Below the pieces are notes generated by a model. The model saw nothing but the letters and a program-made list of their open reading frames with translations. It was not told the DNA's origin and ran no database searches. Made by a program: the position numbers and the translations under genes. 64,000 nucleotides of DNA from Anaspis maculata. Its lineage: Eukaryota > Arthropoda > Insecta > Coleoptera > Scraptiidae. The DNA is taken from the NCBI GenBank assembly GCA_949128115.1, contig OX421963.1, positions 33,029,979-33,093,978 on the forward strand. The letters run 5' to 3'. Below are positions 1 through 58,926 of this stretch, piece by piece (position 1 is the stretch's first letter; each line of letters begins with the position of its first letter).

Positions 1-1301
1 GCTTCAACAGAAAATGAGAAAAACTTTTTCATGCATATAATGTGTCGTGGGTCGTGGATGCGTATGGTTTTGGTTCTTGACGACTTTGCATAGTTTTTTT
101 CGTGGATCTCAAATAGGTAACAATGCAGAATTTCCGAGCAGAGTAATTTCATCAAACTGTTTGCGTTCCCAGTTCATTACACAATCCGTACATATTCGCT
201 ATGGCTGGCAAGTTTATTTTAGATCCGGAATTCTAAATACACAGGTATTACATTAGAGCACTAAATCTATAAAATTTGTTATGCAGGAGGTGTGTGTAGT
301 GTAATGCGATATCGAGTTCGGTGTATGTATGTAATAGTAAACAATATTTTACATAGCACGTTGCATGTATGCACTTGTCAGGTATATTAAATTAATTATT
401 GCAATAAAATGTGGAGTACGCAGCGGGATCTCGACGTTCGGGAATTGATTCATTGTTAAGTTCGATATTGCATAAAGTCTATGACAGATGTGACTCTCAG
501 TCGTTCAAATTGAATACTTATAGCACCGATATGATTAATTACTACAACCTGATTGGACGATATTATTTTGAGTTTCATCGCATGCATTGGAAATTTTTAT
601 CCTCGACCGACGGAAAGGCAGTGCCTAACGTTAATTTGTGCCGCGCAAAGATTTTCCAGAGTTTCATTCTTGTCCATCTGGGCTTCAAATATGATTAGCA
701 GTGTTACTTTATTCTTGAGAAACCAAAAACGTGGAAGTGATTGATTAGTGAAGCTTTCATCGAAACGTGCGGTGCTTTTGTGCACAAGCTCGCAAAAATG
801 TTTATTGCTTTTGCAGACTCTGACCAACTCTCGGCTTTGTCCCCCGCAAATTTTTTTGCAATTTTTCCACCACCGCAGGCGGAATAACTGCAATTTTCTG
901 AAAACTATCCTCGCGGAGGTTTTATTGATACCTGCCCGGGTAGGGAAAATGTGTCGCTGTATGAACTGGGCATTGTATCTTTCGCAGCAAAAGCAAATAC
1001 AATTTATGAGCTTTGTTTCACTGCCAACAACTCGTTTTGATAGGTATATGGAGAGATGTTAAAGCACTCTTCTGTGCTTTCATACATGCCGAACTTTTCG
1101 TTTTGCGAGTATATGCGGAATAAATTTGTGTGTGCACCTATGAAAATCTCGACACGACGACGCGACCACAATGTTAGCTTTGCTCCCGCCGCTGGTTCGA
1201 TTCGCAGTCCAGACGAATATGGTAATGATATTGCCTCTGGGAGGCGTTTAATTTGGTATCCGGAAATTATTTCCATATATCCATCTCGATTGGTGTGTGT
1301 A
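1..1301. other. Anonymous AT-rich DNA, no gene seen
   Basis: Short open frames occur on both strands, but they overlap each other, lack splice support and resemble no family I recognise. No RNA gene or repeat boundary is visible before the palindrome that starts at 1304. Confidence 0.6.
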
Positions 1302-1832
1302 TACAGGGTGTTTCATGACTTATACGACATAGCTTAAGGATATATCCAGTTTTTTGAGGCGGATCCGGATCTGGCTTCGAAATTTTTTTAAGATCCTGCG
1401 TTTCAAAGTTACAGGGTGATTTATGTATTTTGGTCAAAACTTTGATATGTCATAACTTTGGAGCAAATGAATGGAATCGAATGAAATTTGACAGGAAATG
1501 TCTCTCACCACGAACAATCACAATGACCAACAAGACATGAAAAAATCCAGGGCCAGACTAAAAAAAATGGCCCCCATCAATTCTTGGGGCAAAAAAGCCA
1601 TTTCCGCATCGGATTCCTAAAAAATTGTCATTGTATTTGGACAGATGAGAAAAAATGCTACAGAATCAGCTATCCAATACGAACAGCACACCTCAGTAGG
1701 TTTAGTAAAAAAATTGAATAAAAAAATTGAAAATTTTAATAGCGATATTTCCTGAATGATTTGAGGTAATTCATCGCAATTACTACTTTTCAAACAGGAA
1801 ACGAGCAACATTTGAAGAAAAAATCAAAACTC

Positions 1833-2160
1833 CTAACAATAGGTGATAAATACATTACATGTTATCAACAAATGGTTTTCAAAATACCCTCCCCCAACTT
1901 CGACGCATTTTCCACATCTCGTCACTAAATGTCTAGTGGCTTTTCGAATGGTTGGTGTATTGTTCCGCGTTTCATTAGCAGCTGCAATGATCATTTCTCT
2001 ACAATCCTTCCTGGTATTCATTTCCGTCTTGTAGACCTCTAGATCTTTCATGCGGCCCCATACATAGAAGTCTAGGACTGTGAGATCAGGAGATCTGGGA
2101 GCCAGGAATGAGGACCCCCGCGACCAATCCAGCGATAGGGGTATTCTGCATCCAAGTATT
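1833..2160 (-). pseudogene. Mariner-type transposase C-terminus, left-arm copy
   Basis: Read on the minus strand, the frame gives a WIGRGGP-like block, then RSPDLTVLDFYVWG, a MKDLEVYKTEM block, and an ending GGGYFENHLL. This order (W-x-GRGGP, RSPDLTxLDFxxWG, KxxVYxT, GGxFExLL) is typical of the C-terminal third of insect mariner/Tc1-type transposases. The WIGRGGP and RSPDLT blocks lie in frames offset by one base, so a frameshift separates them. The N-terminal DNA-binding region and the first two catalytic acidic residues are absent. It is half of an inverted duplication with 2930-3244. Confidence 0.75.
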
Positions 2161-2800
2161 CTCTGGCGTTTGATGGAAAATTAAGACAGGGCTCCAATTG
2201 CATTCTGATGTATAATTGTTCTTCTTGCTAATCATAAATCTCCATAATTATGTGCCTGTTGTTTCGGGGCCTGTTCAAATTGCCATATTTTGGGAAGTAG
2301 AGCAGCTGCAGACACCGGCACCTCTCTAAATGAAGCTTAGATTTAGGGCTTATTTCCACAAAAAAAGAAGAATTGTATTGGTTGAACGGTTTATGAGAAA
2401 ATCACGCCGAGATGTTTTAGCTGGGATGCACTGTCTTGGGTATTGAAGTAAAAAATGAAAAAGGACCTACCTTGTGACGTCCAGCGCCGTGAGATGGAGA
2501 GAGCGCTCTCTGTGCATGGTCCGCTGATGTCCAGCGCGTCACGGTAGGGTAGGTTGTGGGTTGAAAAATGGAGTGATACACAATAACAATAATGAGAAGT
2601 CCGAAATCGCCCTCGCACAACGCGAATGGCGAAACGGAACCGAGGAGAAACGAAAAAAATGAAGAGAACCTTCAAAACTGAAACTGAAAAATTCTCACTT
2701 ATGGGCACACAAAAACCCTCATGCCACGGTACAAAAGAACTCTCAGCGGAGGTTTTCACTGAATTTGTGGTGCGGAGTGGTTGACGACACTTCAATTGGG

Positions 2801-3244
2801 CTACATTTCTTTGAGGAACGGCTGACGGGGGAAGGCTATCTAAACTTCCTCCAAAATGTTTTGCCTATTTTCAACAAAATGGGGGACCGCCTCATTTTTC
2901 ATTAAACGTCAGAGAACACTTGTACGCAGAATACCCCCATGGCTGGATTGGTCGCGGGGGTTCTCATTCCTGGCTCCCAGATCTCCTGATCTCACAGTCC
3001 TAGATTACTAAGTATGGGGCCGCATGAAAGATCAAGAGGTCTACAAGACGGAAATGAATACCAGGGAGGATTGTAGAGAAAAGATCATTGCAGCTGCTAA
3101 TGAAACGCGGAACAATACATCAACCATTCGAAAAGCCACCAGACATTTAGTGACGAGATGTGGAAAATGCGTCCAAGTTGGGGGAGGGTATTTTGAAAAC
3201 CATTTGTTAATAACATGTAATGTCCTATTTATCACCTATTGTTA
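2801..3244 (+). pseudogene. Mariner-type transposase central and C-terminal remnant, right-arm copy
   Basis: On the plus strand 2801-2905 encodes a block resembling the region before the last catalytic acid (FFEERLTGEGYLNFL, then NVLPIF). From 2930 the WIGRGG block follows, then RSPDLTVLD in another frame, a TAA stop exactly where the left-arm copy has TAT, and the GGGYFENHLL ending. Relative to a whole transposase (usually about 340 residues) less than half remains. The central block has no partner in the left arm, so this arm preserves more of the source gene. Frameshifts and stops rule out function. Confidence 0.75.
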
Positions 3245-3777
3245 GGAGTTTTGATTTTTTTTTCCAAATGTTGCTCGTTTCCTGTTTGAAAAGTAGTAAT
3301 TGCGATGAATCATCTCAAATCATTCAGGAAATATCGCTATTAAAATTTTCAATTTTTTTATTTTATTTTTTTACTAAACCTACTGAGGTGTGCCATTCGT
3401 ATTGGATAGCTGATTCTGTAGCATTTTTTCTCAACTTTCCAAATACAATGGCATTTTTTTAGGAATCCGATGCGAAAATGGCTTTTTTGCCCCAAGAATT
3501 GATGGGGGCCATTTTTTTTAGTCCGGCCCTGGATTTTTTCATGCCTTGTGGGTCATTGTGATTGTTCGTGGTAAGAGACATTTCTTGTCAAATTTCATTC
3601 GATTCCATTCATTTGCTCCAAAGTTATGACCTATCAAAGTTTTGACCAAAATACATAAATCACCCTGTAACTTTGAAACGCAGGATCTTAGAAAAATTTC
3701 GAAGCCAGATCCGGATCCGCCTCAAAAAACTGGATATATCCTTAAGCTATGTCGTATAAGTCATGAAACACCCTGTA

Positions 3778-6700
3778 TTTCAGTTCTTACGATAAAAATA
3801 TGGCGCGAGCGTAGCTAGTTGTCTAGATGTGCTATGTCAGGGCGAAGAGATGTAGGCGTAAGTGAGAAAACCTTAGCGTAAATAAGAAACATGAGTTTCT
3901 TTGGTAGAGTGAAAATTTGCTGCGGTCGAGAAGGAGCATCGTCTCTACTGGTTGGTGGGCACTTCGCTAATGCTGATATCAGTGGCCCCAGTGAGAATGA
4001 GAAAAGTTCCTTAGATTGACATCAATTTATAAGATTCTCTCAACGTGAAACTGTGAAGCTTGCTGGTTTAGTATAAGCTAGAGTAGGAAGTACTCACTGT
4101 TTAAGTGACGAGCATCAGAAAATGAATTCTCTACGCAGTGGGCATTTTCATTCCATTTCTATGGTACCGCGCTTTGACATTTTATTCAGTAGCTGCCATT
4201 CACCTCTAACTGGGAACCTCCTACGAAAGGTCAATCCTGATGTCAGGATATTTTCAAAGCACTTCAGATTTTTCGTTTTGGATGCCATCAACTTCTCGGT
4301 CTTCCAATTAATGTTTTCTCTGGGAATAACAACTGAGACGTCATAAAATTTACGAATTTCGTTTTCGCGATTTAATTCACTATCATTGAGGAAACTTTGG
4401 GTCTCATTAGTCTCGGCCTACTCCCCTGTAATTTCCACTGGGTGTGTGTGTTGGATGCACCAACAATTCCTCGTGCAGATACAACAGCGGTGGTGGTGCA
4501 ATAAATTGGCTTCATTTCATTTAAATAATTACCATCGATAAACAAAGAATCAAAATAGAAGACTCGAATATAATAAAACGTTTGCGAAGCTCCGACATGG
4601 GTATATCTTTTAATGCATAATTAGACGACGGTTGTGAACAGTAGCCGGGGCCCGCAGCCCTGCGAGAGAGTTTCGGGAAAAAATTGCGTAATTGCCTTAA
4701 TACATCACAGAATGCAGTAATCATGCAGTGATATTTTATGTAGATATCAATCCAAAGTCGGACTATCCGAACACATAATCTTTATTTAAGTCAAATTACA
4801 TACGGAGCGCCTTCAGCCATCACGGTATATTTAACGTGGTCGCTGTTGCTTCTTTGGGAAACGCGCGCACACACATACACACAAGAGCAGGAGGAATTGC
4901 ATAATTGAAGCTTGGATGCCCGATTTTGCAAGTTCCGATATTATTTTGCGCTGCTGCAATTAAACCGTGGGTATAACGAAAGGCACAGTATACCAGTCCG
5001 CGGTAATGTACGGTATTACCGATCGCCTCTATTTGAATGCTCGATTTCTCGATTTGTATACTTTTCTTACTGATGTAGGTATGCACTCGTTTGTATCACT
5101 TGATCGCTGAAATCGCAGGTTCATGTCAGTACCATTATCATTTTTTCCATGCCGAATGCCGAGTTCCCAGATTTTCGATCGCTCGCAAACTTTCAATTAT
5201 CTTTTGCACTGCAGGGTTTAACAATTGTACCATTCTCTCCTTCTTTTCCATCCTCTATGAATCAGAACTCGTATAAATGAAAACAAGTAACAAAGTTCAC
5301 ACGGGGTGAGTTACTAAAGCGCATTTTCCGCGAATAAAATAGTCGAAGTGATGATGTGGTAAATCATGGTGTAAAATTAAAAAAAAGGTTTGAAGTTGTA
5401 TTAAAATCGGCTGACTAGTAAGAAAGTCGATATGACGGGCCAAAATGTCGGCGGCCAGTATAATCAACTTCAAAATCATAGGCAATTAATTATGCAAGAG
5501 ATGAGTATATTCCACTTTCATTAAGATCAGTTCACAAAATGTATGTCAAACTATAATCTTCATTTAAGCCCACTTGCAACGGTCCATTCTTTAGTAGTAC
5601 AGGGTGTTCACGCGAGATGGGTACTCCCCTTTAAAAACTTATTTCCCTTCACAATAATTTCAAAAAGAAAAAACTCTCTTTTTGAACGATTTTTTCTGTA
5701 CTTTCTGAATATGTTTAGTACAATTTTCCATTTCATGCCGCATACAGGTGTTGCTTCCAGTTCCATAATCCACAGACAAAATTTTTAGTTGAAGAGAAGG
5801 TGGTTGAAGTCCCATTTTTTTCAGGATATATCAAGAAACGACTGAACTTATTGAATCCAAATTGTTTTGCATTCCACCTCAAAGAAGGTGGAGGATTGTT
5901 TTAGACACCTTCATTCGTCTTTTTAATGGTCAGTTTGACCATGGTGAGAGCTGAAGTGCTGTAAAACAGGGTCCAACAGCTTCTTACGGTCAATTAAAAA
6001 TAACATATTAACTGGGAATGGTCCTATTACATTCAAATAAATTATTGCCTATAACCATTATCACTAGTACCGATTTATTTCACACTTATCCAATGATGGG
6101 CTGATTCAAGAAGACGGCTATGAGAAAAACCAGTTGACTGTCATATTTTCGAAGACAGTATAGGCGGGGCCAACACATGGCATTTTATTTTTGACTTCAC
6201 TCTTTGCGGAACTACCTAAATGCATCCGGATATCTTGAAAGTACCAGCGCTACACAAAAAAATCCGAAAACTTTGTGATACAACCAAGAATTTCGGCGTG
6301 ATTGTTCCTAGGACCAAAATGAATAATTTGGCCCGTTGTTCTTTTCGATTACCCCCTGCTGGTCCAGAACTTCAGGGGTACAAGGGCGACATGACTATTT
6401 TTTGCTGCAAGCACTAAACACTGCTATCGATTCATGTTTGATGTCATTTCTGAATAACTAAAACCTGCTGATCACGATGTCGCCACTGTCAGAATGATGC
6501 GCCTGTCGGGAGACAAAGTAAAGCTGTCAGATTTGCAATGGGGGCTTCCTGAAATAACAAATTTTGGTCATCGAAGGGGATGTGTGGGGTATCATTTTTG
6601 ACATAATCGAGGTCTGCGAACTCGTTTCTTTGTGTGAAAATGTGACTGGTTTGAAAATGTGGAAAATATGAGGGGTCAAAATTATGATTATCGATCATCA

Positions 6701-9947: not shown

Positions 9948-10275
9948 CACTCAGAAAAATGTTTGGTAAATGAGTACCCAAAATGTGTTCAAATACTACC
10001 TTGTGTAGTGGTTGTATATGCATCCAATACTACACTTAGTTCTATTTACCACTACAAATTAGTAATAGCGATTATGATTGAGTGGACCAATGCAACACGG
10101 TTCAAATGAACTAGTGGGTGTAGTGGTAAATTTCAACACTGGTGAATGGTTATGACTAACACAATTATTTGGTGACATTTATCATTAGTGAGTATGGTTC
10201 AGTGAACTAATATTAACGGGTCAAATTAACTAGTACACGTAGTGGTAAAGTTTAACACTGATGATATATTATGAT
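9948..10275. repeat. Left subterminal repeat zone of the SAM-gene element
   Basis: GTAGTGGT occurs at 10005, GTAGTGGTAAA at 10120 and 10239, with an inverted copy (TACCACTAC) near 10047. The last two direct copies sit in longer units starting ACTAGT and ending about AACACTG, spaced 119 bp. The same motif recurs inverted-symmetrically at the other end. Such clustered subterminal motifs are commonly transposase- or transcription-factor-binding sites; that role is inferred. Confidence 0.6.
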
Positions 10276-10981
10276 CAACTACATGACTGTCGAATTAGAG
10301 TCTTTCAAGCAAAGTTAGGACTTATCATGTCTTTTAGTAATTGGTAACACCACAGCAATGTTATTTTTGACCAATGCCTGTCTGGTATTACTAACTATAA
10401 CTTAATTTGTTTCACCTACTGGGTGCTACTGGTTGAATAGGAAGGTAGGAAGGTAAATAAAAAAAAAATTACAAAAATTATTGTACTTACTCAAAATCAA
10501 AAATATCAACAAGATATTCACAAACATAAAGTATAACAATAAATACTGATAATACATAGACAAATGAATAAATAAATGAAATGCAATAGACTAGGTACAG
10601 GGTTGTCGTTGATTCTGAATAACCCGCTTTGTTCAAAATTTATAAATTGAATTATTTAAGTGGGTTTCACTAACGCTGAGTTAAGATAATACGAGATTAG
10701 TTTGAGGACTTTGCACTTAGAGACTTTGAGGACTTACCACTTAGCAGGTTTTTCAGAATCAACGACGATATAAAGAAAAACTGAAGAAATTTCAAATATG
10801 GCGCGGTAAATTGATCATAGCGACATTATCTTTTTTAAAAAGGTGGCAGTGTACATTCGAAAATAATTTCGTTACCTCAACAATTTTAGTTTCTTCAGTT
10901 TTTCTTTCAACAACATAACTGTGATAATGGCGAGAAAAACCTACATTTTCAAAAGATTTGTAAACGAAGTAAACGTCCTTT

Positions 10982-13900
10982 TTATTTTTTTCTTTTTATT
11001 TCAAATCTTTCTTTGGGAATCCTGAAAAAAGATGACAATGTTAATTAAGTAAGCAAAAGTGTACACTCTCATTTTATTTCAGAGCCAACCTTTTGTTAGG
11101 TTCAGAAGACAGCTCTCTATCTATTATCAGTTTGACCAATAATCGCCGCTTCAATTCCTTATTCAACCGATAGCTTTGTAAAATTTCTTTCCCATCATTG
11201 ACACTTTCCAAAAAAAGTAACAAATTATCCTGAAACATCATTTTCAATAAACAATTGTTCAAGAGTAACTATATTTACATTACCTGTTCTGCCAAAGTTT
11301 GTTGATTTTTCACAATCTCCTTTGATATAGAAGGAGCCTCTGAGTTCCCTGTTGGAGTTTGTCGATTTTCCACAGTTTCGTATGTAGAAGCAGTCTCTGA
11401 TTTCTCTTTTCCGCCACTCGTTACTGATATAGGTGAATCGTCGTCTCCCACCACAAAAGAAAAATCAGCGTTCTAATAAATTAATAAAACAATTTTATAC
11501 ATTAAACAGTCTTTCGAAATTATTAGTAAATATAACAGCTGATGTATAAAATCGAGTATAAAATGCAAAGTAGCGACAACTAGAGAGCGGATTTATAATT
11601 TTCCGCATATCCTATATACACACATCAAAAGAATCTAGGGGACAAGCAAATTGTGACATAAAATTTTTACAGGGTGATCAACGGAACGGTGTAAAATTAC
11701 CTAAAGTTCAAGACGAGCGCGATTTGACAAACTTTTTTTTATAAATTCTAATACAACAGTTACAAAGATTGATGTTTTAGCTTTAGAATAGTTCTTCAAT
11801 TTTAAAAATTCGACGTAAAATGGCGAAGAATTCTCGCGTGAACACCCTGTACAAAGTGGGATTGTATTTTTGGTTCTCCACCAGTAAAGCTTGGTGATCT
11901 TGCTCTATGTGACTCATGACAAAATAAGTGACCTGTACCTACTAATAATAATTACAAATTAAAAATTACATTATAATGATTTTTTTTTCATTTCACATTA
12001 CCTGTATGTCCTGGTACTCTTCAATCTTGGCCCAAACTTTGGCGAAGAGTCCAATTTGTGGAATTATGGATTTGAGATCGCTTTCTTTTAATACGAGAAG
12101 TGCCTCCAGGTCGATTTTGTGTTCTGAAAAATAACGTAGACTCCATTTAAAATAATACCATTAAGGTACTATAGCACGTGGAAACCGACGTAGTTCGAGA
12201 GTCTACCTGGCTGTTACGGTTTCACGTATGAAACCTTCAAAGATTCACACATTTTCAAGAATGTTACTTTTGTTTTATAATTACATAATTAGTTATTACA
12301 CGCAATTTGTGATTTGTTAGAAAGCGAGTGTAAAAAAGATGAAAAGAAGATACAAATAGGCTGCAACTGATTAAGTAGAATTCTTGTAGGATTTTGTAGG
12401 TATACAGGGTCATTCAGAAAACATGTCCACCCCCATTTTTATCGAGAACCGTTAGCGTTAGCGAGTTGCGGTAAAAACTGTTAGATTCACCATATCTGTG
12501 AAGTCCGATTTCATTATGCTACCAGATTTTTTTCACCAAAACTTTCTGTACGGGGGCGTCTTAAGAATTTGATCAATTTTTTTTTTACCCTGTACAATGT
12601 TGAGTGATATCTCATCTCAAAGGCCTTTAAAAGTTTCAATGGACAAGTGCAAACCGTTTTCGAAAATTGTCAGCGGTTTTCATTTAATGATAAAAAACAA
12701 AAACCTGGAAAAACACATTTTTGTGTATAAAATAAAAACCTATGACTATTTTTTCAAAATGCAAACGGCATTCAGTATAACTTATCAAAACGGTCAGTTT
12801 GATGTATAACTCAATATGCAATGACTATTTCAAAATTTTGAGGCATTTCAATTTTGTGCTTAAAAAATTTAATTTCGGAAAACCGCAAAATTTTAAAATA
12901 GCCATTGCATATTGAGTTAAACATCAAACTGGCCGTTTTTATAAGTACTACTGAATGCCGTTTGCAGTTTGTAAAAATAGTCATAGGTTCTTATTTTATA
13001 TACACAAAAACGTGTTTTTCCAGGTTTTTGTTTTTTATCATAAAATGAAAACCGCTGACAATTTTCGAAAACGGTTTGCACTTGTCCATTGGAACTTTTA
13101 AAGGCCTTTGAGATGACATATCACTCAACATTGTACAGGGTAAAAAAAAATTGATCAAAATTTTGAGACGCCCCCGTACAGAAAGTTTTGGTGAAAAAAA
13201 TCTGGTAGCATAATGAAATCGGACTTCACAGATATGGTGAATCTAACAGTTTTTACCGCAACTCGCTAACGCTAACGGTTCTCGATAAAAATGGGGGTGG
13301 ACATGTTTTCTGAATGACCCTGTAGAAAGCCGTGTAAAAAATTGAAAATATATTTATAAAAAATGTATAACGTTTCGCCCTCGCCTGAGGGCCTCTTCAG
13401 ATGGTAAACAGGTTAATATGGGTTGACCAGTCTACTTCAGCTAAAAGAGAAGGTTTAGATTTATTAAGGGGATGATTTAGGAGTGTTTTTTACTTACAAA
13501 TTTTGAATCGAGTGATTTATTTGATTTTCTGAAGTAGACTGTTAACTAACAATAAATGAATGACAATTTAAACAATAAATAAGGTACTTATATAGGTAAA
13601 TAATTCTAATAATAGAGATAGAAGTAGACTGAAGTAGACTGTGAACCCATATTAACCTGTTTACCATCTGAAGAGGCCCTCAGGCGAGGGCGAAACGTTA
13701 TACATTTTTTATAAATATATTTTCAATTTTTTACACCGCTTTATACCTACAAAATCCTACAAGAATTATACAAAGAAAAGCCACAAAACACCAAGATATT
13801 AAGTAGAATGATAAGTGGAAAAAGCCAAAAAGTAAGTATTACTTTATTAAATTCATGCGTCATGCAAGTATACCTACACATCAACATTTTCTTGCTTCAA

Positions 13901-14745
13901 GGGATTTTTTCCAGGAAAAATTTGCGCAGCGAAATATCGGAGGTGGTATACTTTTCAAAAAATCTCCCTGTATATCCTCGATCCCTGAAATGTGACATAA
14001 AAATCTAACCTCAATTAGGCAGGGCATCAAACAACTATTTATATTGTTTTTGAAATGAATTCAGTGGCTTAGAAAATAAGGGACAAACAGTGATTAATTT
14101 TATTTTAGAAAGATTTAGATTTATTTTAGAAACAGCCTCACAAAATTGGGGACGTAAAATCGGTTGGGCAGGGTGAAAGTTATATCAAATAATCGATTTT
14201 TACTTTGAATATCTCCGTTATTATGCGTTAAAATAGTATGTTATAGGCCTAGGTAGAGAAGTATGCCATTATAGTTAGAGTTTAAGGGAAATCGATTCGC
14301 ACCGCTTTTTTATGACCAAACAGTGTCACGCTGTTTCGTTCTTTTTAAAGCAATTTTTGAAGATTTGGGCTTGATTTTTTTTTATTGGATACATAACAAA
14401 TTGCAATTCTCTCGGTCTCACTCTGTTCTATAATGCGCGCATAAGGCGATACCCTTGTTGCCACCACACCCCGCCTTAGGTCAATGATTGAAAGCAATAA
14501 GCGCGCCGCGCAGCATGGAACAAGCAAAAAAATGTTGGTACCTATCTATAATTATTATTTTTTATCATTCTACCAAGCGATCTATCGAGCAGGCATGCAC
14601 AATTGCCAGCCATATCCTGCTTCTAGACAGGACACAGCCTTACCTAAATTAAAATTTTCTTTTGATCTTACGGCACATTGAAATGTTTACCTTGAAAGTG
14701 TGGGGATAGCTCAATGAGCCCCCAGTTATGAAGGTAATCATCCAT
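10982..14745 (-). CDS. SAM-domain protein gene, five coding exons (joined model)
   Basis: Exons in transcript order: 14745-14691, 12123-12002, 11472-11284, 11229-11090, 11021-10982. All introns are GT-AG and phases match, giving 546 nt (181 residues plus stop). Residues 1-59 begin MDDYLHNWGLIEL and contain IDLEALLVLKESDLKSIIP followed by IGLFAKVWAKI, the helix pattern of a sterile alpha motif domain (a protein-interaction module). Residues 60-122 are acidic, Ser/Thr-rich and probably disordered. Residues 123-168 (GKEILQSYRLNKELKRRLLV, then RELSSEPNKR) look like a second helical domain; I recall similar SAM-plus-this-domain proteins in insect annotations but cannot name the family. If the fourth intron is not used, translation ends at 11074 (173 residues). 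The short fifth exon ends in a lysine-rich tail and may be truncated. No enzymatic motif is seen. The unbroken frame over four introns argues for recent function. Confidence 0.65.
11670..11849. mobile_element. Short TA-flanked CAGGGTG element in intron of the SAM gene
   Basis: TA-CAGGGTGATCAACGG at the left and CGCGTGAACACCCTG-TA at the right bound 180 bp. The two termini agree only over about ten bases, so this is a degenerate or composite element. Its right end matches the solitary terminus at 5600. It lies in the intron between the exons ending at 12002 and starting at 11472. Confidence 0.6.
12405..13322. mobile_element. Near-perfect TA-flanked palindrome nested in the left arm of the Penelope-like element
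   Basis: Ends read CAGGGTCATTCAGAAAACAT and its reverse complement, flanked by TA at 12403-12404 and 13323-13324. Arms of about 455 bp are almost identical and meet near 12860. The opposite arm of the enclosing element shows the unoccupied site (GTAGGTATAAAGCGG read on the minus strand at 13735-13749), so insertion with TA duplication is directly visible. High arm identity suggests recent formation or gene conversion. No coding capacity. Confidence 0.9.
13668..13697 (+). other. Hammerhead-like motif (unproven), with inverted twin at 13376-13402
   Basis: CTGAAGA is followed by one extra G, a six-pair stem GCCCTC/GAGGGC and GAAAC, the order of hammerhead core strands (CUGANGA, stem II, GAAA). 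The extra base and the lack of an obvious cleavage-site partner stem argue against activity. A related GCCGAAACGCGCGTC lies near 7424-7438 on the minus strand. Confidence 0.25.
13810..14690. other. Intron sequence of the SAM gene with no further gene
   Basis: This is the 3-prime-to-start part of the first coding intron. A GC-richer patch at 14440-14520 stands out, but neither strand has a recognisable domain. It may be another dispersed repeat. Confidence 0.4.
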
Positions 14746-15376
14746 TCTAAAATAAATAATGAAAAATATTCGTGTAAGTATAAGCTTATGCAGTTGAAAG
14801 GCGAGTTTGCAGTTTTCCATGGTGACAGAGGCAGGAAGCAAAAAAAAAGGTATAATTTGAAACTTTCGTAAATATCTAGAATAGGCTGAAATGAGCTACA
14901 AACACTACAAAAATGCCCATTAGGGTTTATGAGTAGAAAAAGGATGAGACATCTATCTTTCTTTCACGCACTCGTAACGAGTCTGTTGCTAAAAAAGGAC
15001 AAGTAGTAAGTAATTGCTTACAAGTGCGAGAAGGAAGGGAGGTGACGCATCCTCCATCCGAACTCAAAGGCCGTTTGTAGGTACATCATTTTTATAGAAA
15101 AAACTAGTAAAAAAACTACACATTTCGGCATTTCCGCAACAAATGAAAGTAGTTAGAAACAGTTCTGGAGTGGAAAGGAATACCTATCTAGTTAAAATTT
15201 GGAATCCTAAATCCCAAAGTGCCTATTCTAGATAATTAGGTACATACCGGAACTTTTTTAAAACATCGGACCGCACACATCAAATTCATGCACTAGCAGT
15301 AATCAATATCAATAACCTTATGCAAAAATAACACCTCAAATATTATCTATGTAATTGTGAGTGTATAGGCACTTAC

Positions 15377-15480
15377 CGTTATTCTGTTAACTTTTTCGCA
15401 CCACCCCTTCTGTTGCCGGACAACTCACAACTCGCACTGATGAAGATCGTTAATGCGATTGATGAGAGACGGGGAGGGGT
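15377..15480 (-). promoter_or_regulatory. Probable noncoding first exon and promoter zone of the SAM gene
   Basis: On the minus strand AGAATAACG is followed by GTAAGTG at 15376, a strong donor that could splice to the acceptor just before the ATG at 14745, leaving AACGAATGG around the start. The upstream transcription start is not defined; it would lie at the edge of the right subterminal motif zone, so those motifs may act as the promoter. The upstream boundary is approximate. Confidence 0.4.
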
Positions 15481-15898
15481 GTTAGGTGTTACTAAGAAAA
15501 AACACTAACACTGTATCGATGTCAGCAACCATAACTGTATATAATCAAACACTTGTAGTGGTAAATCTCACCAATTTTAAGTAGTCTAATACGCCTCGAA
15601 ACTAACATGTTGGATTCAACTTAAAACACCGGGTAGAACCTAACACTGTAGTGGTATGTTTCAATACCACAACAATAGTTTCGTATACTTTGTATTGATG
15701 GAGTAGATTCAACATTAAAATGTGTGATATACACTAGTAATAATTGTGGTGGGCTATACTTCCTCCTGTTTACTAATTTGTAGTAGTTATTCGAACGTTT
15801 GGTAGTTTTAGTGAACATTTGAAATTTGTAGTACTGATGAACAAAATCTGCATTAACACTACAGGTGGTAAAAAACTCACTTGCTAATTTTCTCAGTG
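15480..15898. repeat. Right subterminal repeat zone of the SAM-gene element
   Basis: GTAGTGGTAAA at 15555, GTAGTGGTA at 15648 and GGTGGTAAA near 15866 repeat the motif of the left zone, accompanied by TAACACTG units. The sequence ends in the inverted CACTGAGAAAA terminus at 15898. Matching motif content at both ends supports treating the whole interval as one element. Confidence 0.6.
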
Positions 15899-22504: not shown

Positions 22505-24008
22505 AAATGTGACGAAAGTGACAGAAGAACACGCCAAAAAATTAAATAACCTCGCTTTAGTTGCAATTTACATGATAGTTGAAGTTTGTTTTGAGGATTT
22601 GTGCATTTGTGGTACAGAACATTGTTAACTGCGAGACTTTGTGCCGTGGCGTATGGCTGACAATGACACGTACATCGATCTGACAGATGACTTCTGACAG
22701 TTCTGACTTACCTGTCGTTTGGAACAGTGTCGCCAAAATTTAAACGAAAAATTACACTAGAATGTTGCGCACGCCGTTTTCTATTTTGGAAAAACGTAAT
22801 CGGTGAAATAATTATCATATTTTTCCATCAATTTATTCATAGGTAGTAGTATATCATGTCAATTTTATGAAAACCAAAGAAAATACCGAAAAAATGGCCA
22901 ACCAATGACTTGGCAACAGCTTGAAGTCGGTGTACCCATCGCGCGCTTTTCGAACGTTATTCGGTCACTTTTATTTGCTTGTCCATTTCCTCTTGATTTT
23001 TCATGGTTTTTAAATTGACTCTGGCTGGTACCTACATATTATGGCTGGTATTGAACAATGTGAGAATGAACTTTTTCAAATCCTTCAGCTTGCAATATTA
23101 GACAGTAGAATATATAATTTGGAGATTACAGTCTATTTTTCACCATAATAACATTGGCTTCTCAAAAGATTTAAGAAAAATGCAAGAGACATTTGACGCC
23201 ACTTGGTCGCAGTTCAAGTATAATTATACAGAAAATGATTCGTTAAATTCAATAATAGGTTATTCGCACTAACTTGCAGAATTTGAATCAGGCGTAAATA
23301 TCTTGTTATCGTTGTTATCTTGTTGAGTAGTTTTTTGACTCTCAGTGTCATTCCAACTTGATAGCAGCGGTGATGAGAGACCTGCTAATCAGTGGCTCTT
23401 AAACATTCTCACAAAACGGTTTTTGGGGCCAAACAAACCTGGCCACACGTTTCGAGGCAAGAAACACATCACTGCTGACCACAGATGACGCAAACTTCAA
23501 TTTAGAAACAAGTAGGTAGGTACCTATCAATATCTACAAATACGAAATTCAAAGTTCCCATAGGCTTTTGAGAACTGCTGTCTTGTTACATCTCATGTAT
23601 GCCCGGGGAATTTATTGCTTGGCTTGGTATGGCGATTATCAATCTAGTTTAGGTACAGGTCTATGCCTGAATGCCGTAATTTTACAGGGCCGGACTTTGT
23701 CGCTTCTATAGCTTTATTATCCTGCTATTAAAACCCAACTCGTCCGATGAAACTCAGAACTGATTGGTTCAATAATTATGCAACTTCCAATTACCTGATT
23801 TGCAGTTTTTTTTGCTTCTGGTAGTACTTCGACGGCTGAACCCATACTACTTAGTCTACTTACACACAAACACTAACCTTAGTCTGCAAGTTATCCAGGA
23901 TTTCCTTGATCTGGAAAAAAAGAATACAGTTAACAATGGTTTTTGCGCCACCAATTAATTTTTTGTTGAGGTACTTCAATATTGTCTTAGGGGTAGCTGA
24001 CTTATAAT
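22505..24008. other. Anonymous DNA, no gene seen
   Basis: No domain, RNA gene or repeat boundary is recognisable. Around 23930-24010 the sequence leads directly into the orphan LINE domain. Confidence 0.45.
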
Positions 24009-24029
24009 TTGATTATATTATATTTTATT

Positions 24030-24392
24030 ACTGACGGCCTGAATCGCTTCAGTGACATCGTTGCTTTCGATTCGAAGTCTGACTCGGCTTATATAATCGA
24101 CCCTACAGTTCGATACGAAACAAACGATGAGGATCAAGATGAAAAAATCTGTGACGAAAAACGTGCCATCTACGAGAAATGTTTCGACTACTACGATAGC
24201 AAATTCTCTCCAAAATATGGTACTCGGAAATGGGAAGTGCTTGGCCTTTGGTTCGGAAGCCGAGGCACTGTAGGAAAAAGCGTGATGGACTTTTTTATTC
24301 GTTTTAAACTCGACATGGACGTGATCAACGATATATCGGAACAAATTCTGATTGACGCAATCAGGATTTTACACAAACATATTTATATATAA
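24030..24392 (+). pseudogene. Orphan C-terminal domain of a non-LTR retrotransposon (endonuclease-like)
   Basis: A 127-codon frame includes RFSDIVAFDSKSDSAYIIDP, then a charged stretch and EVLGLWFGSRGTV. The series D-I-(V/I)-A-F, DPT(V/I)RxE and (E)V(L/I)GLxxGxRGT resembles, to my recollection, the C-terminal restriction-like endonuclease region of R2/CRE-type LINE proteins annotated in many insects and other invertebrates. No reverse transcriptase motif lies upstream. The frame is open but isolated, so it is a 5'-truncated copy or unrelated sequence. The AT-rich tail after 24392 would fit a 3' end. Confidence 0.5.
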
Positions 24393-26710: not shown

Positions 26711-27138
26711 TTGCGGTTTGAAGAAATGCGCTCAAAAGAACGAAAAGTTGTAACTTATCAACCAAAAGAGATAGAATCGTATAAATAAATGTCCATGTAT
26801 AGACTCTGTATTTATTTCATGGCTATGGTTATAAATAAGGTCGGTATTCAACAATAATATTAGTCAAATATCTTGAAAAGTTTCTAAAATATCCTCAGCA
26901 AAACTGAATTTTTTTAAATATTGATTGAATCACTGATTTTTCAAGATATTGTTAGGGGTTCCGCGTTTGGGTTGTTTTATAATTGAGACGATCGTTTTAA
27001 AACACACACTGTTCATTACTGCGTGCTATTATAAAACACACGTCAATAATTACTTGCGCTTGGGTATATCGCTTCAACTTCTCGCTGTTACCGCTCTGAA
27101 TTGAATACTGGTCCGTTGGCCGATCCGTGCTGTTTATA

Positions 27139-28609
27139 CAGGGTGGTGAAAATTTCGATGCTCACCATTGGTATCTTGGAAACGGTATGAGATACGAGGT
27201 CGGTTAAATTAGAAAAAAGTTGCGCATTTTTGTGGCGATTGAGAATCTGAAAAGAGACTGAATATTTTGATTGGTTTACGATTTATCACGAAAAAAGTGA
27301 AAATTTTGATTTCAGAAATTATTTTTCATCTTTCCAACCATCCAAGCTATTTCAATCAAACTTGGTAGTTTTATGTTTTTGATCACTACGAGTCGATCAA
27401 CGTCAACAGAAATTTTCCAGGCCTTCTAGATGTCAAATTATGATAGTCAACTTTTGTTTTTCTCATGGTCGCCATATTGGATTTTTGCACTAATAGATAG
27501 AGAAAAAAATTAGCTTTCCGAATTAGTAACCAACATGTTCTTTTTATGACATTTTTAGCGTCAAATTTTGAAATTTTCGTAAATTATTGACAAAATCGGA
27601 AATGCTTTGGAAAAGAATTGAAATATTATCAATAGCAACAACAAAAGGAGACAGATTGTGTTCAATTGACGTATCTAAGGGCTCGATACCAAGTTGCAGG
27701 TGCAAAGTTTGGGACGGCGTAACTCGCCACATACAGCGCGGTCTGATTGGTTGGTATCTGCCGTTGCTATGGTAACGGCACTGACGGCGGTCTCAGCCCC
27801 AACTTGGTATCGAGCCGTAACTTCTTAATCATGTTTTGTGCTTGTTTGTACTGAGAGTTCATAAATTGAATGAGTCAAGGGTGCCTGTGAATTCAGAAAC
27901 GTCTGTCGAAACTAGGGTAACTAATCCTTACTCTTTTTCTAATAAATTTGTCAAACTTTAACAAGAACGATGCTAGTTCCGTCAGACGTTTTTGAACTCA
28001 CAGACACCCTTGACCCATTCAATTTATGAACTACCGGTACAAACAAGCACAAAACACGATCAAGAAGTTAGATACGTCAATTGCACACCATCTGTCACTT
28101 TTTTGCTGTTGCTATTGCTAATATTTCAATTGTTTTTTTAAGCATTCCCGATTTTGTCAATAATTTCCGGAATTTTCAAAATTTGACACTAAAAATGTCA
28201 TAAAAAGAACATGTTGGTTACTAATTCCAAAAGCTAATTTTTTTCTCTATCTATTAGTGCCAAAATTCAATATGGCGGCCATAAGAAAAACAAAAGTTGA
28301 CTATCATAATTTGACATCTAGAGGGCCTGGAAAATTTCTGTCAACGTTGATCGAGTCGGAGTGATCAAAACCATAAAACTATGAAGTTTGATAGAAATAG
28401 CTTGAATGGTTGGAAAGATGAAAAATAATTTCTGAAATCAAAATTTTCAGTTTTTTCGTGATAAATCGTAAACCAATCAAAATATTTCAAGTTTCTCTCC
28501 AGATTCTCAATTGCCAAAAAATGCGCAACTTTTTTCTAATTCAACCGACCTCGTATCTCTTACCGTTTCCAAGATACCAATGGTGAGCATCGAAATTTTC
28601 ACCACCCTG
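27139..28609. mobile_element. TA-flanked palindrome inserted in the solo LTR
   Basis: Ends CAGGGTGGTGAAAATTTCGA and reverse complement, TA at 27137-27138 and 28610-28611. The arms (about 27139-27920 and 27950-28609) pair well apart from a 142-bp addition in the left arm, the MITE 27679-27817 plus its duplicated TAA. Both arms contain a CCATATTG / CAATATGGCGGCC segment. No coding capacity. Confidence 0.85.
27679..27817. mobile_element. PIF/Harbinger-type MITE, TAA target duplication
   Basis: Ends GGGCTCGATACCAAGTTG and CAACTTGGTATCGAGCCG, flanked by TAA at 27676-27678 and 27818-27820. The other arm of the host palindrome reads GTATCTAACTTCTTG in the minus direction with one TAA, which is the empty site. 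A 3-bp TWA duplication with GC-rich ends is typical of PIF/Harbinger. Confidence 0.85.
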
Positions 28610-28939
28610 TATATCTCCGACTACCATTCTGGAAGTTTCCATCGGTTCTCTAGCAAATTCCATATTGACCGCGGCATGTAAATCGCGACCGCCCTCGAAA
28701 CGTCGATCACCTTCGCGTATAATTCCGGCGTGCTTTGGACCGGCGGTACCTCCGCCAATTGGCCAGATGTGTCCTACTCGGCTATTGGAATCTCCCATGT
28801 TATTTCGAACGTGGCAGAGTCTAGGCGTATGCCCTCGAATATTTCTAGAGCTTCGTAATTCGCAACAATGGGTACGAATGGTCTAGAAGGGCCATGTGTG
28901 TTCTCGAATGGACGGGAGTCTCGCCGCTCGTAACAATAT

Positions 28940-30927: not shown

Positions 30928-31463
30928 TATAGTGTTACCCAGATGTTGGAGGATGTCTGTTCGGCTTGCTGCATCATGCACCTTGAATTTTCCAGCATGC
31001 GAACGAAAACGAACCGCATCTAAGAATCCCATACATTTGGTGATTTCCCAAGTTTCGAAAGACGAGTCAGAGGAACGTCAAACGGACACGAAACTTGAAT
31101 GCAGTGAACCGGATTCTCGTCGTTCAAAATTGACGGAAAATCACGAGGTGCATGGGCTCCTTTAGAGAAAATCTGAAAATGTTCATCCTGCTGTACAATT
31201 GCCGGAGCAGCTTGCTTCAAGTGTTTACCGGAACATTCGTGAAACTGATGGACTTCTCTCAGAGCCCTCACAAATGGCCAATGCTGGAATACACCGCAAC
31301 GACAATGGAAACGACGAGAACCTTCGAGGCTTTTCCAGGAGACGCCTGGAATATTCTTGGTTACAAGACCAACTATATAAGGGCGGCATGGCCAGGGAGC
31401 GAGTCAGAGTCGAATTAAAAGCGATAGTGCGAACACCAGCGAAGTGCCAAAATTAAGGGTGAC

Positions 31464-32457
31464 AATGGGGTACTTGCCAATGAAACAGATTTGACTGGAA
31501 ATACTTTCAATCATCAACAAGAGTAATAAATAGTATTTCCTGAAAATTTCTGGAAAATACCTATATCCATTGGTTAAAAAGATTTTTTTTCATTTTTTTT
31601 TTCAAAGGGTTGGTAACAGTAGGAAAATTTCAGTGAAATTTTTATGTCTGTATTTTTCAAATATTGTGATGCCACTCTGACAGTTTCTTGAATTTTCAAC
31701 CCAACAGTGCTGTTTGTTTAGTTTTTAGTATATTTGTGACGTCACAAATATATTTTTAAAACAGGCACTACGGCCGCAATTTTGGGAATTTAGGAAAAAG
31801 AGAAAATACGGGTGCAATATTTTTACCTGTAGTTTCGATTAAGCCAATAAAAAAAATTGGGCAAGTACCCCATTCGTTTGACGTGTGCTTTAGTCGAACG
31901 TAGTGATAAAATAATTAGTGCATGCCTGAATGTTTCTTTCTCAATAATAATTATTAATGTGCCCAACGCAATTTTCTCACGTTAATGTCAGAAGTGGGAA
32001 AATGGGGTACCTATGTACTTGCCCAATTTTTTTTTCAATGACTTAATTGATAGTATGATTAAAAATAATGTACCCGTATTTTTTCTTTTTCGTAAATTCC
32101 AAAAATTGCGGCCGTAATGCCTGTTTTAAAAATATATTTGTGACGTCACAAATATACTAAAAACTAAACAAACAGCACTGTTGGACTGAAAACTCAAAAA
32201 ACTGTTAGAGTGGTACAGGCACAAAAACTCCACTGAACTTTCCCTACTGTTACCAACCTTTGAAAAAAAAATCGAAAAAAAATTCTTTCAACCAATGGAT
32301 GTTAAAACATGTAAAAAATTTCTTCAATGCCATCTGTCTTCTCCACTGTGCCCAGTGGATATATTTTCCGGAAATTTCCAGGAAATACCCTTTATTACTC
32401 TAGTTGATAATTGAAAGTAGTTTCAGTCAAATCTGTTTCATTGGCAAGTACCCCATT
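31464..32457. mobile_element. Palindromic element with a perfect CRE palindrome in each arm
   Basis: Inverted ends AATGGGGTACTTGCCAATGA and reverse complement; arms about 450 bp. Each arm contains TATTTGTGACGTCACAAATA (near 31731 and 32134), which includes the full CREB/ATF site TGACGTCA. Immediately to the right begins Gypsy gag-like sequence. No clear target duplication was found. Confidence 0.75.
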
Positions 32458-32479
32458 GAGAGAAATTCGGCCTGCGACT

Positions 32480-41466: not shown

Positions 41467-41616
41467 TATACTATTATCCAGAAGTTAGGAAACATCGGGT
41501 TAAAAATAATTAGAAACACCCGTCTGCAGGTGAAGTTCCAAGTAACTTAGGATAATTTCACTTGCAAGTTGCTTGTATCATTTACTGGGGTACATGCCAT
41601 GAGATGGGATCATATA

Positions 41617-42695
41617 CCGGGTGATCATTTGAAAACTATCCACCTGCAATAACTCCCGATCCCTAGTGAATATTTTTTCGAACAAAAACAGGTCGATTTT
41701 TATATCGAGGGGGACATCCAAAACATACATTGGCAAATTTCTATATTCACCCCCCTCGCCCCCACTCACCCCAACTTTGAAATTTCAAATGACACTACCT
41801 ACCTTGCGATACATCAAATTGAAGGAAATTAAATTCTCTTTCTGAAAAAAATATTTTAAATTTTTTTAACCCCACCCCTTTTTCCCTAAACATTCTCTGA
41901 CTGTCCTATTTTATATTCTGGACCCCTCATTTTTTTCTCAATTTAGTCGGCGTCATCCTAGATAGCATCGAAGAAGAAAATTCTCGGTGGAAAAAGTGCT
42001 ACCCAAATTCACCCCTTTGCTCTCCCCCACCTCAACTCCAAATTTAACGAAGCACCACCTACTTTGTGATACATCAAATCGAAGGAAATTGAATTCTCTT
42101 TCCAAAAAGAATTTTTTTTGAAATTTTCTACCCCTCCCCCAATAAATTGGCCATTTGGAGTATTCTAGGGGGAAATGGGGGGCTTTAAAAATTGTGAAAA
42201 AATCTTTTTCTGGAAGAGAATTCAATTTCCTTCAATTTGATGTGTTACAAAGTGGGTATTGACATTTTAAATTTTTAAGGTCAGGTGGGGGGAGCGAAGG
42301 GGTAAATTTGGGTGGCACTTTTTTATAGAAAATTTTCTCTTTCGATGCTGTGCAGGATGACGTTTACTGTATTGAAGGGAAATGGAGGTCAAGAATATTG
42401 ACTTGGACACTCAGAGAATGTTAGGAAGAACGGGGGGTGGGGTTGAAAAATTTAAAAATATTTTTTTTAGAAAGAGAATTCAATTCTCTTCAATTTTATG
42501 TATCGCAAGATAGGTGATGTCATTTGAAATTTTAAAGTTGGGGTGAGTGGGGGCGAGGGGGCTTAAGATATAAATTCTCCAATGTATGTTTTAGATGTCC
42601 CCCTCGATATAAAAATCGACCTGTTTTTGCTCAAAGACATTTGCACTAGGAATCTGGAGATATTGCAGGAGGATAGTTTTCAAATGATCACCCGG
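41617..42695. mobile_element. Full-length CCGGGTGATC palindrome
   Basis: TA-CCGGGTGATCATTTGAAAAC and inverse bound 1,079 bp; arms of about 500 bp meet near 42170. The body contains CCACCC-rich tracts and GATACATCAAAT(T/C)GAAGG. Related copies: 30423-30927 (one arm deleted) and 19616-20010 (one arm). This is the reference copy of the family in the window. Confidence 0.85.
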
Positions 42696-44365
42696 TATAC
42701 ATATGTTGAGGTAATTGATTCGAGAGGTTTCTTGAGGACTGAATTATTGAGTGCTCGCAAAATTTTCAGTCAGTCAAAAAATTATCGGGTATAATATGCA
42801 ATGAGTGCAATGAAAATTACCGATAATTCTGAAAAAATGCGTGTTGCCTGAAAACTGCACGAGTTTGTTTTCTCTGTTGTTCGAAAGCTAAAAGAGCCCG
42901 ACCCCTAGAATTATCTGGTTCTTTTCATTGCAAGAGTGGTATTCGGAAGAACATTTCCCGAATCATTCTACAAATTATTCACATATTATTTCACACTACA
43001 ATAAAATTGATGATACATGAATAGCCACCTAACTGTACTGAGCCGCAAAACAGAAAAGAGAACCAGAGGCTGACGAAATAAGACTGATCATACAAAACAA
43101 CGGTAAGTTCCAAGCTCCATGAAAATCGTTCCACTACTAATAAGAAATTTCAATATGGCGGCAGAGCATCATTTGTCCAAAATCTGATGTATTTTGATGA
43201 AATTCACATCGCCTGCGAATTTCACTCAAATCGGACCACTTTCAGAGAAAGGACCCCGCACGTTTCTTATGGAAAATGGGTCTCGGTCAAATTCCCTAAT
43301 TTTTTTATATGTTGTAGCCGCATTTGACTCGAGCCAAAATCCATCGTCCGTTACGTAAAAAAATGGACAGTTCTTTTTCTATAAGGGGTTGAAGATGGGT
43401 TATTTCAAAGTAAAGAAATATGTTCCAAAGTAAGTGGGAACATTTCAAGGTCCTTTCTAACATATATGGCTCATGAAAATTCCCTTTTCCTTTTGTGAAA
43501 AAATCAACCCTCTCCCTCACCCCCAACCCCTAGTTGAGAGTATCAAATCCGAAATTACGTTTGAAAGTCATGCAAATGGTTCTATTTTGTCAAATTAATA
43601 ATTTTGGCACAAATTGTCTTTCCAACCCCCAAGGGTGGGGTTGAAAAAAAAACATCGGTCAATTTGGCTGAATTTCTGATATTGTGCTTTATCAGCTACG
43701 CTGAACAAGATTACCAAGGGAAAACTCATACGTATGACCAGTTTCCACCCCACAGAGGGTTGAAGTTGTCTACAATGAATCATGAAACATTCTTCCATGT
43801 CATAAACCAAATGAATGGAAATAGTGAACTTTCATATCATCTTGTTTCGTGAAAATGTCTATTCTTCAAAAATAATTTCAACCCCGTACCTCATCCCCTA
43901 TCCCTGTTTCTGAACATCATATTCGAAATAAATCTTGAAAATGTAGGAGGTCTACGGTCGGATTATCTGCATCTGATTGTAAATCCCCTCTCAAAATTCA
44001 CTTCCACTATGCTTATGTTAGCACCCTTACAGCAGGCTAGGATATTTTTTTTTAATGATTTTTTGCCTGGATTAATATTAAAAATATTGGTGTTTCTATC
44101 AAGCTTCAATTTCACAGCAGTTTATTATGTCTACCTGTACCTCGACCTGTACCTAATTCCTTATTTTCTTCTTTTGTTCGGATACACCTCTATTTATAGC
44201 TCGATTTATAGTTTAGATTGAAGAATTTAATGTCATCTGAAGCGAAAGCTGCTCAAATGCTCAGTCAAGGCAAAATATTATGTCACACTTTTATTCCAGC
44301 TACTGCGACTATTTGAAGGATGAAATAAAAATAATTATAATTTTCAAGGTTTATTCCGAATATAA

Positions 44366-44596
44366 GCTCGGCCCGTGAAAACTAGTAAAAACGCAATCGA
44401 CAACATCACCACTTATGCCCAAAAAACCAGCAATGATGTCCAACAAACTGGCCCAACGGAAAATAGCTCCCCACATAATATTGCACCTTCTTCACAGCAA
44501 CAAACACAAAACAACCTTGAAATAATGATGACAAAAATGATGGACAAGATGGACAAGGTGCTCGACTTACTAATAGCTCTGATTGCCAAGATATAA
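44366..44596 (+). pseudogene. LINE ORF1 C-terminal fragment
   Basis: About 77 codons, Gln/Asn-rich, ending in a Met-rich helix (LEIMMTKMMDKMDKVLDLL) just before the ORF2 start. ORF1 of Jockey elements encodes an RNA-binding Gag-like protein with zinc knuckles; those are missing here through 5' truncation. ORF1 and ORF2 are separated by only two bases (TAA at 44594-44596, ATG at 44599). Confidence 0.6.
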
Positions 44597-44598
44597 TA

Positions 44599-57460: not shown

Positions 57461-57944
57461 AACCACATCTCTCATGACTATGTTCATCCCACAATCCCAC
57501 ACATAGTGCGGCGGTTAGTAAGAACCACCTTGCATTTTGTGATAAAGATAAAAGCATGAAATTTGGCACATACGCTCTACAGACTGTCCTTTACTATTTA
57601 CGAGGCGGACCGATGGAACCGCCGTGCAGTTGTCAGAATTGGCATTTGCCTACCTTCCAGGGGCCAAAACTGAAGTCGGTTATCAAGCTGATTCAAAAGT
57701 GACGTCGATCAATGCAGTAGACCTTCACAGTATAACTCCACCAAAACAGATGTCAGTATTACGGAAGGAGGGGGAATGGGAGGGGATAGTTCTAGCCGCG
57801 GCACAGATTTTTTTATTTGTCAATTTCGGACCAAATTGACAAGTTTGGTGTCGTTTCCGACTAAATTACATCTTCTGAGTTTCGAATTGAATGTTGTGAT
57901 TGCAGTTTGGAGAAAAAAAAAATTGTTTTGTTGAAAAAAAATAT

Positions 57945-58545
57945 ATTTCAGAAAAAATCTTAGTCTTTTTTCATTTTGACTTTTATCTCAATTCCGGGCA
58001 TTCGAAGTGGAAATCCTTATTTAGTTCACTTCTTCAAAGCTTTCTGTACATAAAAACCATGTACGAGACCTGATTTTTACTCTGACAAGATCGTGAGCCT
58101 CATTTGTTTCTAAAGTCGTAGAAGTAATATCCGATAATTTTATTAATTTTCATGTACGAATGGAGGTGTGCGTGCAAAGCCTTGCAGTTTGTTATAAAAG
58201 CCTGAAACTTGGCATACATGGTCTATGGACTGTCCTTCACGATATAAGAGGAGCACCCATGACGGAACCGCCGTGCAGCTGTCAGAATCGCCGCGATACC
58301 TTTGCATGCACACTTACATTCGTACATGAAAATGATAGCATTACACTTTCACGACTCTAGGAACAAATAAAGCTCACTAACTTGTCAAAGTAAAAATCAG
58401 GTCTCATACATGGTTTTCATGTGCAGAAAGCTTTGAAGAAGTGAACTAAATAACAATTTCCACTTCGAATGTCTTGAATTAGGATAAAAGTCAAAATGAA
58501 AAAAGCCTAAAATTTTTTTCAGAAAAATATTTTTTTGGTAACAAA
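57945..58545. repeat. Internal hairpin of the composite element
   Basis: TTTTGACTTTTAT...GCATTCGAAGTGGAAAT...CATGTACGAGACCTGATTTTTACT (57976-58083) inverts against 58390-58500. The loop repeats the arm segment found at 57530-57650. Confidence 0.7.
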
Positions 58546-58599
58546 ACGAGGGGTTGACCGCAGCGAGAATTTGTACAAAAGAGTTCCTCTCTTGGAAAG

Positions 58600-58785
58600 A
58601 GTTCCCCCGACTTCCTCTGAATTCCTCTTGACTTCCCATGACTTCCTTCGACTTTCTCCTGACTTCCTTCGACTTTCCCGGAATTCCTCTGACTTCCTCC
58701 TGACTTCCTTGGACTTCCTACTCCCTCCTGACTTCCTCGGACTTCCTCCGACTTCCTACTGACTTCCTCTTGATTTCCCCAGCCA
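58600..58785. repeat. Minisatellite, about 10-bp unit GACTTCCTCN, copy 1
   Basis: More than a dozen variant units read GACTTCCTC on the plus strand. They follow ACGAGGGGTTGACC and TTTGTACAAAAG. Confidence 0.8.
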
Positions 58786-58926
58786 TTCAATAGCTTTTTA
58801 CTTATCTGCTCTTATTTTTGGTCAAGAGGTTTGGTTACTGCGCCTAGCTAGCGATTAGAGGTGTTTGGGAGTATAGCATTGGTATTCAAAATGATGATTT
58901 ATTCAGCGCCAGATGGGGTAGGTATA

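Follow-up and report, generated by a model that had tools for sequence, protein, structure and literature searches.

What is a gene for a SAM-domain protein doing, apparently alone, inside a transposon? The question is raised by a 5.95-kb unit at positions 9948 to 15898 of a 64,000-nucleotide stretch of the Anaspis maculata genome (contig OX421963.1, positions 33,029,979 to 33,093,978; hereafter, the window). A first-pass annotation of the sequence described related CACTSAGAAAA ends enclosing one intact-looking, spliced minus-strand gene and no transposase, and suggested that the encoded protein could be a mobility factor, a binder of the subterminal motifs or a captured host gene. Our analysis indicates that the unit is very probably a non-autonomous, internally deleted copy of a young DNA transposon with two genes, one for a SAM protein and one for a RAG1-like transposase. 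Most likely, the SAM protein belongs to the element itself as its second protein, and is not the product of a captured host gene.

The terminal pair by itself is not significant evidence for transposon ends. The 11-bp repeats match at 10 of 11 inverted positions and have TA borders, and 136 comparable TA-bordered pairs (at least 10 of 11 positions, spaced 1-10 kb, low-complexity pairs removed) occur in the window, 46 of them outside its masked long inverted repeats. Just one of the 136, the unit's own pair, begins with CACT. The terminal 400 bp of the unit share 14 10-mers, which ranks 14th among the 46 pairs; the 13 pairs ranked higher lie, by their coordinates, largely within other repeats of the window, and 134 of 19937 pairs in a random control reach 14. 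The subterminal motif TGTAGTGGTAAA is more telling. At up to one mismatch it occurs four times in the window, each time within 400 bp of a unit end and nowhere else. At up to two mismatches there are six occurrences in the ends, none inside the unit and eight outside it, and at up to three the counts are 10, 11 and 66. Matching subterminal motifs are thus present as described, but they are confined to the unit only at the stricter threshold.

The recurrence of both ends at the same 12 loci in the genome (757.8 Mb in 50 contigs) is decisive evidence that the unit is a transposon. The left 400 bp yield 16 genomic matches, of which 12 show 98-100% identity across almost the full query length. For the right end, a 400-bp query yields 17 rows, which correspond to the same 12 loci, one of them split by an insert, and four weak matches. 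A perfect 2-bp target duplication flanks 11 of the 12 copies (TA in five, including the window unit, CA in four, and CG and TG in one each), so the ends and borders first read at this locus are real, and copies sharing them exist, as had been proposed for a test. The expected duplication is indeed 2 bp, and TA here, but the family is not TA-specific; the CA, CG and TG duplications rule out a Tc1/mariner element. That the ends might be a chance pair flanking an ordinary host gene is a reading that the frequency of 11-bp pairs would permit, but the paired occurrences and their duplications refute it, and its probability is negligible. Across the 12 copies, the left ends (627 bp) differ by a mean of 0.34%, which implies a recent spread. 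The introns have been invaded by repeats, as first noted, with fold-backs in intron 1 and a short element in intron 2; the fold-backs are common to several copies and therefore predate the spread of these copies. Three weak left-end relatives (L029-L031), fetched with their flanks, gave no transposase or SAM match, and searches of viral contigs and of genome contigs turned up no relative. One further locus, L001, is a single 17-base motif match.

The missing transposase is explained by comparison among the copies. Ten of them, comprising the window copy and nine others, were mapped against the longest, L028, whose 16,112 bp include about 4.8 kb of inserts that are missing from copies spanning the same places. 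The window copy lacks 5.37 kb that L028 has (reference 1043-6408), a segment that takes in the greater part of SAM exon 5, exons 6-9 and, on the same strand, most of an 819-codon transposase frame that lies directly downstream of the nine-exon SAM gene. Thus, the unit lacks a transposase gene because about 5.4 kb of its interior has been deleted. A whole transposase gene hidden in the unit is ruled out: there is no Pfam match to one (unspliced six-frame pieces of at least 25 aa yielded no family at all), and what survives is a remnant of 64 codons, from a region with BAH-like character in the relative P0002. The first-pass annotation was therefore correct that no whole transposase gene is present, although a piece of one remains, and fuller copies encode the protein beside the SAM gene.

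Other copies carry different deletions. One deletion is common to L018 and L023 and another, elsewhere, to L021 and L027; because each of these derivatives occupies two sites, such deleted copies do move. The short copies L018, L022, L023 and L024 keep the ends and have few or no SAM coding exons. Independent occurrence of the ends in related genomes had been named as grounds for rejecting the association, but these four copies belong to the same family and arose from it by deletion.

Two copies, L028 and L019, have an open transposase frame and differ from each other in it at two residues; in L020, L021, L026, L027, L022 and L024 the frame is damaged, split or partial. Relatives of the transposase number 360 at E≤0.01; among the 120 listed, the best is from Agrilus planipennis (49%), and all those with a named organism are insects. 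Residues D290, D380, C400, C403, H603 and E623 are present in 41 of 41 sequences and H599 in 40 of 41, with C(2)C and H(3-4)H motifs between the second D and the last E. By their place in this order, the D and E residues are the putative catalytic residues. A Plavaka domain (PF18759) is matched by residues 364-496 of an 828-aa frame of L028, as a partial domain, at 27.6 bits against a cut-off of 26.3, and in L019 the score is 27.4 bits. The predicted structure of P0002 has a RAG1/Transib-like core and a BAH-like domain at its C-terminus.

The SAM gene of the window is also incomplete. Its five predicted coding exons, read at first pass as 181 codons in phase, were recovered exactly and contain no stop when joined. 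However, the deletion junction cuts exon 5, and therefore the 181 codons stand for about 531: the full gene, assembled from L028 exons and window exon 2, has nine exons and 1596 nucleotides encoding 531 aa. The gene is thus open as described but truncated relative to its family. A four-exon model of 173 aa was dropped since the donor AAAAG|GTTGGC and the exon that follows it fit the fuller copy and a Photinus protein better. For that four-exon version, none of 20000 random chains of blocks of the same lengths was open, and G+C at the three codon positions was 0.51, 0.30 and 0.39. Exons 1 and 2 jointly encode the SAM domain, which has the SAM fold. The predicted structure of the protein is weak overall (pLDDT 57.8), and outside the SAM domain the fold comparison gave only poor matches.

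The 173-aa query found no relatives among proteins of 0.55 to 1.75 times its length, probably because relatives of about 530 aa exceed that range. A 472-aa SAM query, scored on the 7995 candidates sharing most words with it, found three relatives among these candidates, the best being a 530-aa protein of Photinus pyralis at 57%. An Abscondita terminalis protein, P0122, combines a SAM-family C-terminal part with a piece of a Mutator-like transposase (PF20700, E 2.6e-20), which may reflect either a merged gene model or a second superfamily with a SAM partner.

Could the SAM gene be a host gene picked up as a passenger, as in Pack-type elements? SAM is a common host domain, and the window copy, considered alone, carries only the SAM gene. 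However, the pairing of SAM gene and transposase extends well beyond this copy. A transposase search of the Anaspis genome, in which 55 of 162 candidates were scored, gave 56 matches at 48 loci. SAM matches accompany seven of the nine loci that are at least 90% identical. They also accompany 10 of the 39 diverged loci, always on the same strand, eight upstream and two downstream. Where diverged loci are at least 33% identical over more than 500 residues, a limit chosen after the table had been seen, SAM lies upstream in seven of eight. Conversely, 37 of 44 genomic matches to the SAM query P0121 have a transposase match no more than 8 kb away, and among the seven others is one within L025, a deleted copy. 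The pairing is also seen in gene models from four other insects. Because the pairing recurs, the association must be older than the family in the window, and capture of a host gene, one of the options first proposed, is very unlikely. The unit is mobile and bears a SAM gene, as was claimed, but carrying no transposase gene beside it is a trait of this deleted copy and not of the family.

Several loci found in these searches have features of their own. Two look-alike loci, C4:33113824-33118744 and C6:22827554-22832474, are 29% identical to the query and have a SAM exon downstream of the transposase. Contig C43 contains, between 32766 and 613202, six damaged transposase pieces with an equal tally of stops, as if copied in a repeat array. 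For a family at 47% (C3:41838480), ends were not found in the 5.1 kb examined.

The same pairing could mean that at least some transcripts encode SAM protein and transposase as a single fusion, with SAM as its N-terminal domain. In four of the 120 listed relatives, a SAM part is N-terminal to the transposase within one annotated protein (P0114, P0023, P0030 and P0001; the joined models are from Agrilus, the last part only, Holotrichia, Ceutorhynchus and the butterfly Brenthis), and the ATG of the L028 transposase overlaps the stop codon of the SAM gene (ATGTATTGTAA, L028:4117-4130). This overlap is of the kind seen in termination-reinitiation, and the two L028 frames differ, with a stop in the transposase frame just ahead of its start. 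Moreover, Photinus has a stand-alone SAM protein of 530 aa, and automatic gene models often merge neighbours. We regard fusion as unlikely, and two adjacent genes as the better description of the element.

Certain observations weigh against a two-gene transposon as the source of the window unit. No copy with both genes undamaged was seen among the 12: in L028 a 0.7-kb insert interrupts SAM exon 2, and SAM exons 2 to 7 are missing from L019. Copy L020 has no clean duplication (CA versus GC). The Pfam SAM_2 score of the window protein, 19.6 bits, falls just under the cut-off of 20.5, and the two C2H2-like fingers of the transposase score only weakly in Pfam (E 0.034, below the cut-off). The structure that was modelled is that of P0002, a relative at 38% identity and not the family's own protein, and the catalytic roles in the transposase are read from motif order. 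Finally, 29 of the 39 diverged transposase loci have no match to the single SAM query, P0121, and the 10 paired loci include near-duplicates (C4/C6; C1:8130015/8257413), which means that not every pair is independent.

The family resembles several known systems without coinciding with any of them. It shares a RAG1-like catalytic core with RAG1-RAG2/ProtoRAG and with Transib. In ProtoRAG, the gene for the second subunit adjoins the RAG1-like gene; here the second gene encodes a SAM protein that is not RAG2-like, and a BAH-like domain is present in cis. The RAG and Transib duplications are 5 bp, in contrast to 2 bp here. The En/Spm (CACTA) elements of plants have CACT ends, as here, and are also similar in encoding two proteins, TNPA and TNPD, and in having subterminal repeat arrays. 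They differ in a 3-bp duplication (PMC4158355). They encode a Transposase_21 domain (PMC1636069), for which the L028 transposase has no significant match and the relative P0012 one below the cut-off (E 0.0037). Animal CACTA-related elements such as SmTRC1 and other TRC elements do have 2-bp duplications, but their termini are CCC, they encode Transposase_21, and a SAM partner is not mentioned in the available part of PMC1636069. The PF18759 match above the cut-off links the transposase to Plavaka, whose termini are given as TGT..ACA or CATCA..TGATG in PMC12730594, unlike the CACTSAG termini found here. As defined in the same paper, the CMCT clade comprises EnSpm/CACTA, Mirage, Chapaev, Transib, Plavaka, ESTA and Lanisha, and is characterized by CA..TG termini, a D-D-C(2)C-H(3)H-E order and a RAG1-like fold. 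The family here has CACT..AGTG termini, a 2-bp duplication at 11 of 12 copies (the clade range is 2-5 bp), the same motif order and, in P0002, a RAG1/Transib-like fold; the SAM second protein and the BAH-like C-terminus that it adds are not mentioned in the available part of PMC12730594. Assignment to ESTA is rejected because its TA duplication is found in only five of the 11 duplications. Search listings of the open-licence PMC literature show no SAM protein described from a DNA transposon, with Repbase outside the search.

Features of the window unit (strand given as + or -; a point marks no strand).
Feature	Position	Strand	Evidence
Internally deleted, non-autonomous CMCT-type DNA transposon copy (probable)	9948..15898	.	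ends paired at 12 loci; TA/TA flanks; 2-bp duplications at 11 of 12 copies
Left terminal inverted repeat CACTCAGAAAA	9948..9958	+	bordered by TA; recurs in genome
Left subterminal array, TGTAGTGGTAAA-like motifs	10004..10249	.	exact or one mismatch at 10045-, 10119+ and 10238+
Final 64 codons of the transposase gene (residues 756-819), a C-terminal remnant	10795..10986	-	tblastn, 98%
SAM gene exon 5, shortened	10982..11021	-	matches longest copy as far as about 10998; junction sequence beyond it gives a stop after residue 181
Deletion junction, 5.37 kb missing relative to longest copy	10986..10997	.	copy mapping
SAM gene coding exon 4	11090..11229	-	donor AAAAG|GTTGGC
SAM gene coding exon 3	11284..11472	-	spliced reading; match to other copies
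Short TA-flanked repeat with CAGGGTG ends, intron 2	about 11671..11855	.	sequence only
SAM gene coding exon 2, encoding the remainder of the SAM domain	12002..12123	-	in L025 and L026; interrupted in L028
Nested fold-backs, intron 1	12375..13771 (12403-13324 inside the other)	.	present in other copies
SAM gene coding exon 1	14691..14745	-	of 10 other copies tested, 6 have it complete and 2 in part
Possible non-coding 5' exon, GTAAGT donor at its end, beside right subterminal array	15375..15500	-	predicted from sequence
Right subterminal array	15554..15863	.	15554+ exact; 15647+ and 15852- with two mismatches
Right terminal inverted repeat CACTGAGAAAA	15888..15898	-	bordered by TA; recurs in genome

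The window contains other repeats. The segment 43030-48364 has inverted arms of about 900 bp, 96% alike, around LINE-type frames at 44521-47233 (Pfam Exo_endo_phos and RVT_1), and is probably a LINE nested in a fold-back. Long inverted repeats or palindromes are abundant (1301-3778, 27135-28613, 31463-32458, 41613-42699 and 57925-58547). At 57506-61179, a further unit, of unassigned kind, is suggested by TA-bordered GTGCGGCGGTT ends, by arms of about 400 bp that are 90% alike and by two GACTTCCTC minisatellites inside. An open frame of 131 aa at 23997-24392 has no Pfam match, and scanning the window for Rfam families and tRNA genes gave no hits.

How might the two proteins work together? Read leftward from the right end on one strand, the fuller element consists of the motif array and a presumed promoter, the SAM gene, the transposase gene and the left end. 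By analogy with RAG1 and Transib, the transposase might bind and cut the CACTSAG ends. SAM is a protein-protein interaction and polymer-forming domain, and En/Spm TNPA offers a model for a protein acting at subterminal arrays. The SAM protein could thus oligomerise along the subterminal motifs or on the transposase, and perhaps, like TNPA, help to bring the ends together or regulate expression. The proposal that it is a mobility factor is compatible with its partnership with a transposase in this family, and the role itself is suggested by SAM biology and the TNPA analogy. The window copy would move only with transposase supplied by other copies. Its truncated 181-aa protein might instead act as a repressor that poisons the full protein while keeping the oligomerisation domain, for which the KP protein of P elements is a precedent. 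The SAM domain, start and regular splice sites are all kept although the 3' two thirds of the coding sequence is lost, but the frame may be open merely because the copy is young; we consider such a repressor improbable.

A broader and more speculative idea, which we hold only tentatively, is that of an insect-wide lineage in which a RAG1-fold transposase with a chromatin-reader-like BAH domain has an obligate SAM partner polymerising on subterminal arrays. Such a system might be an independent counterpart of RAG2, with its PHD finger, in reading chromatin and controlling the cut.

An odd gene-bearing unit thus becomes part of a defined two-gene family, whose open transposase frames and near-identical copies make its activity directly testable. 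The family may also account for a portion of the SAM and C2H2 proteins that insect genome annotations leave uncharacterised. RAG1 is the protein that rearranges our antibody genes, and a RAG1-like transposase with a different partner and a BAH-like domain would bear on the origin of two-subunit transposases like RAG.

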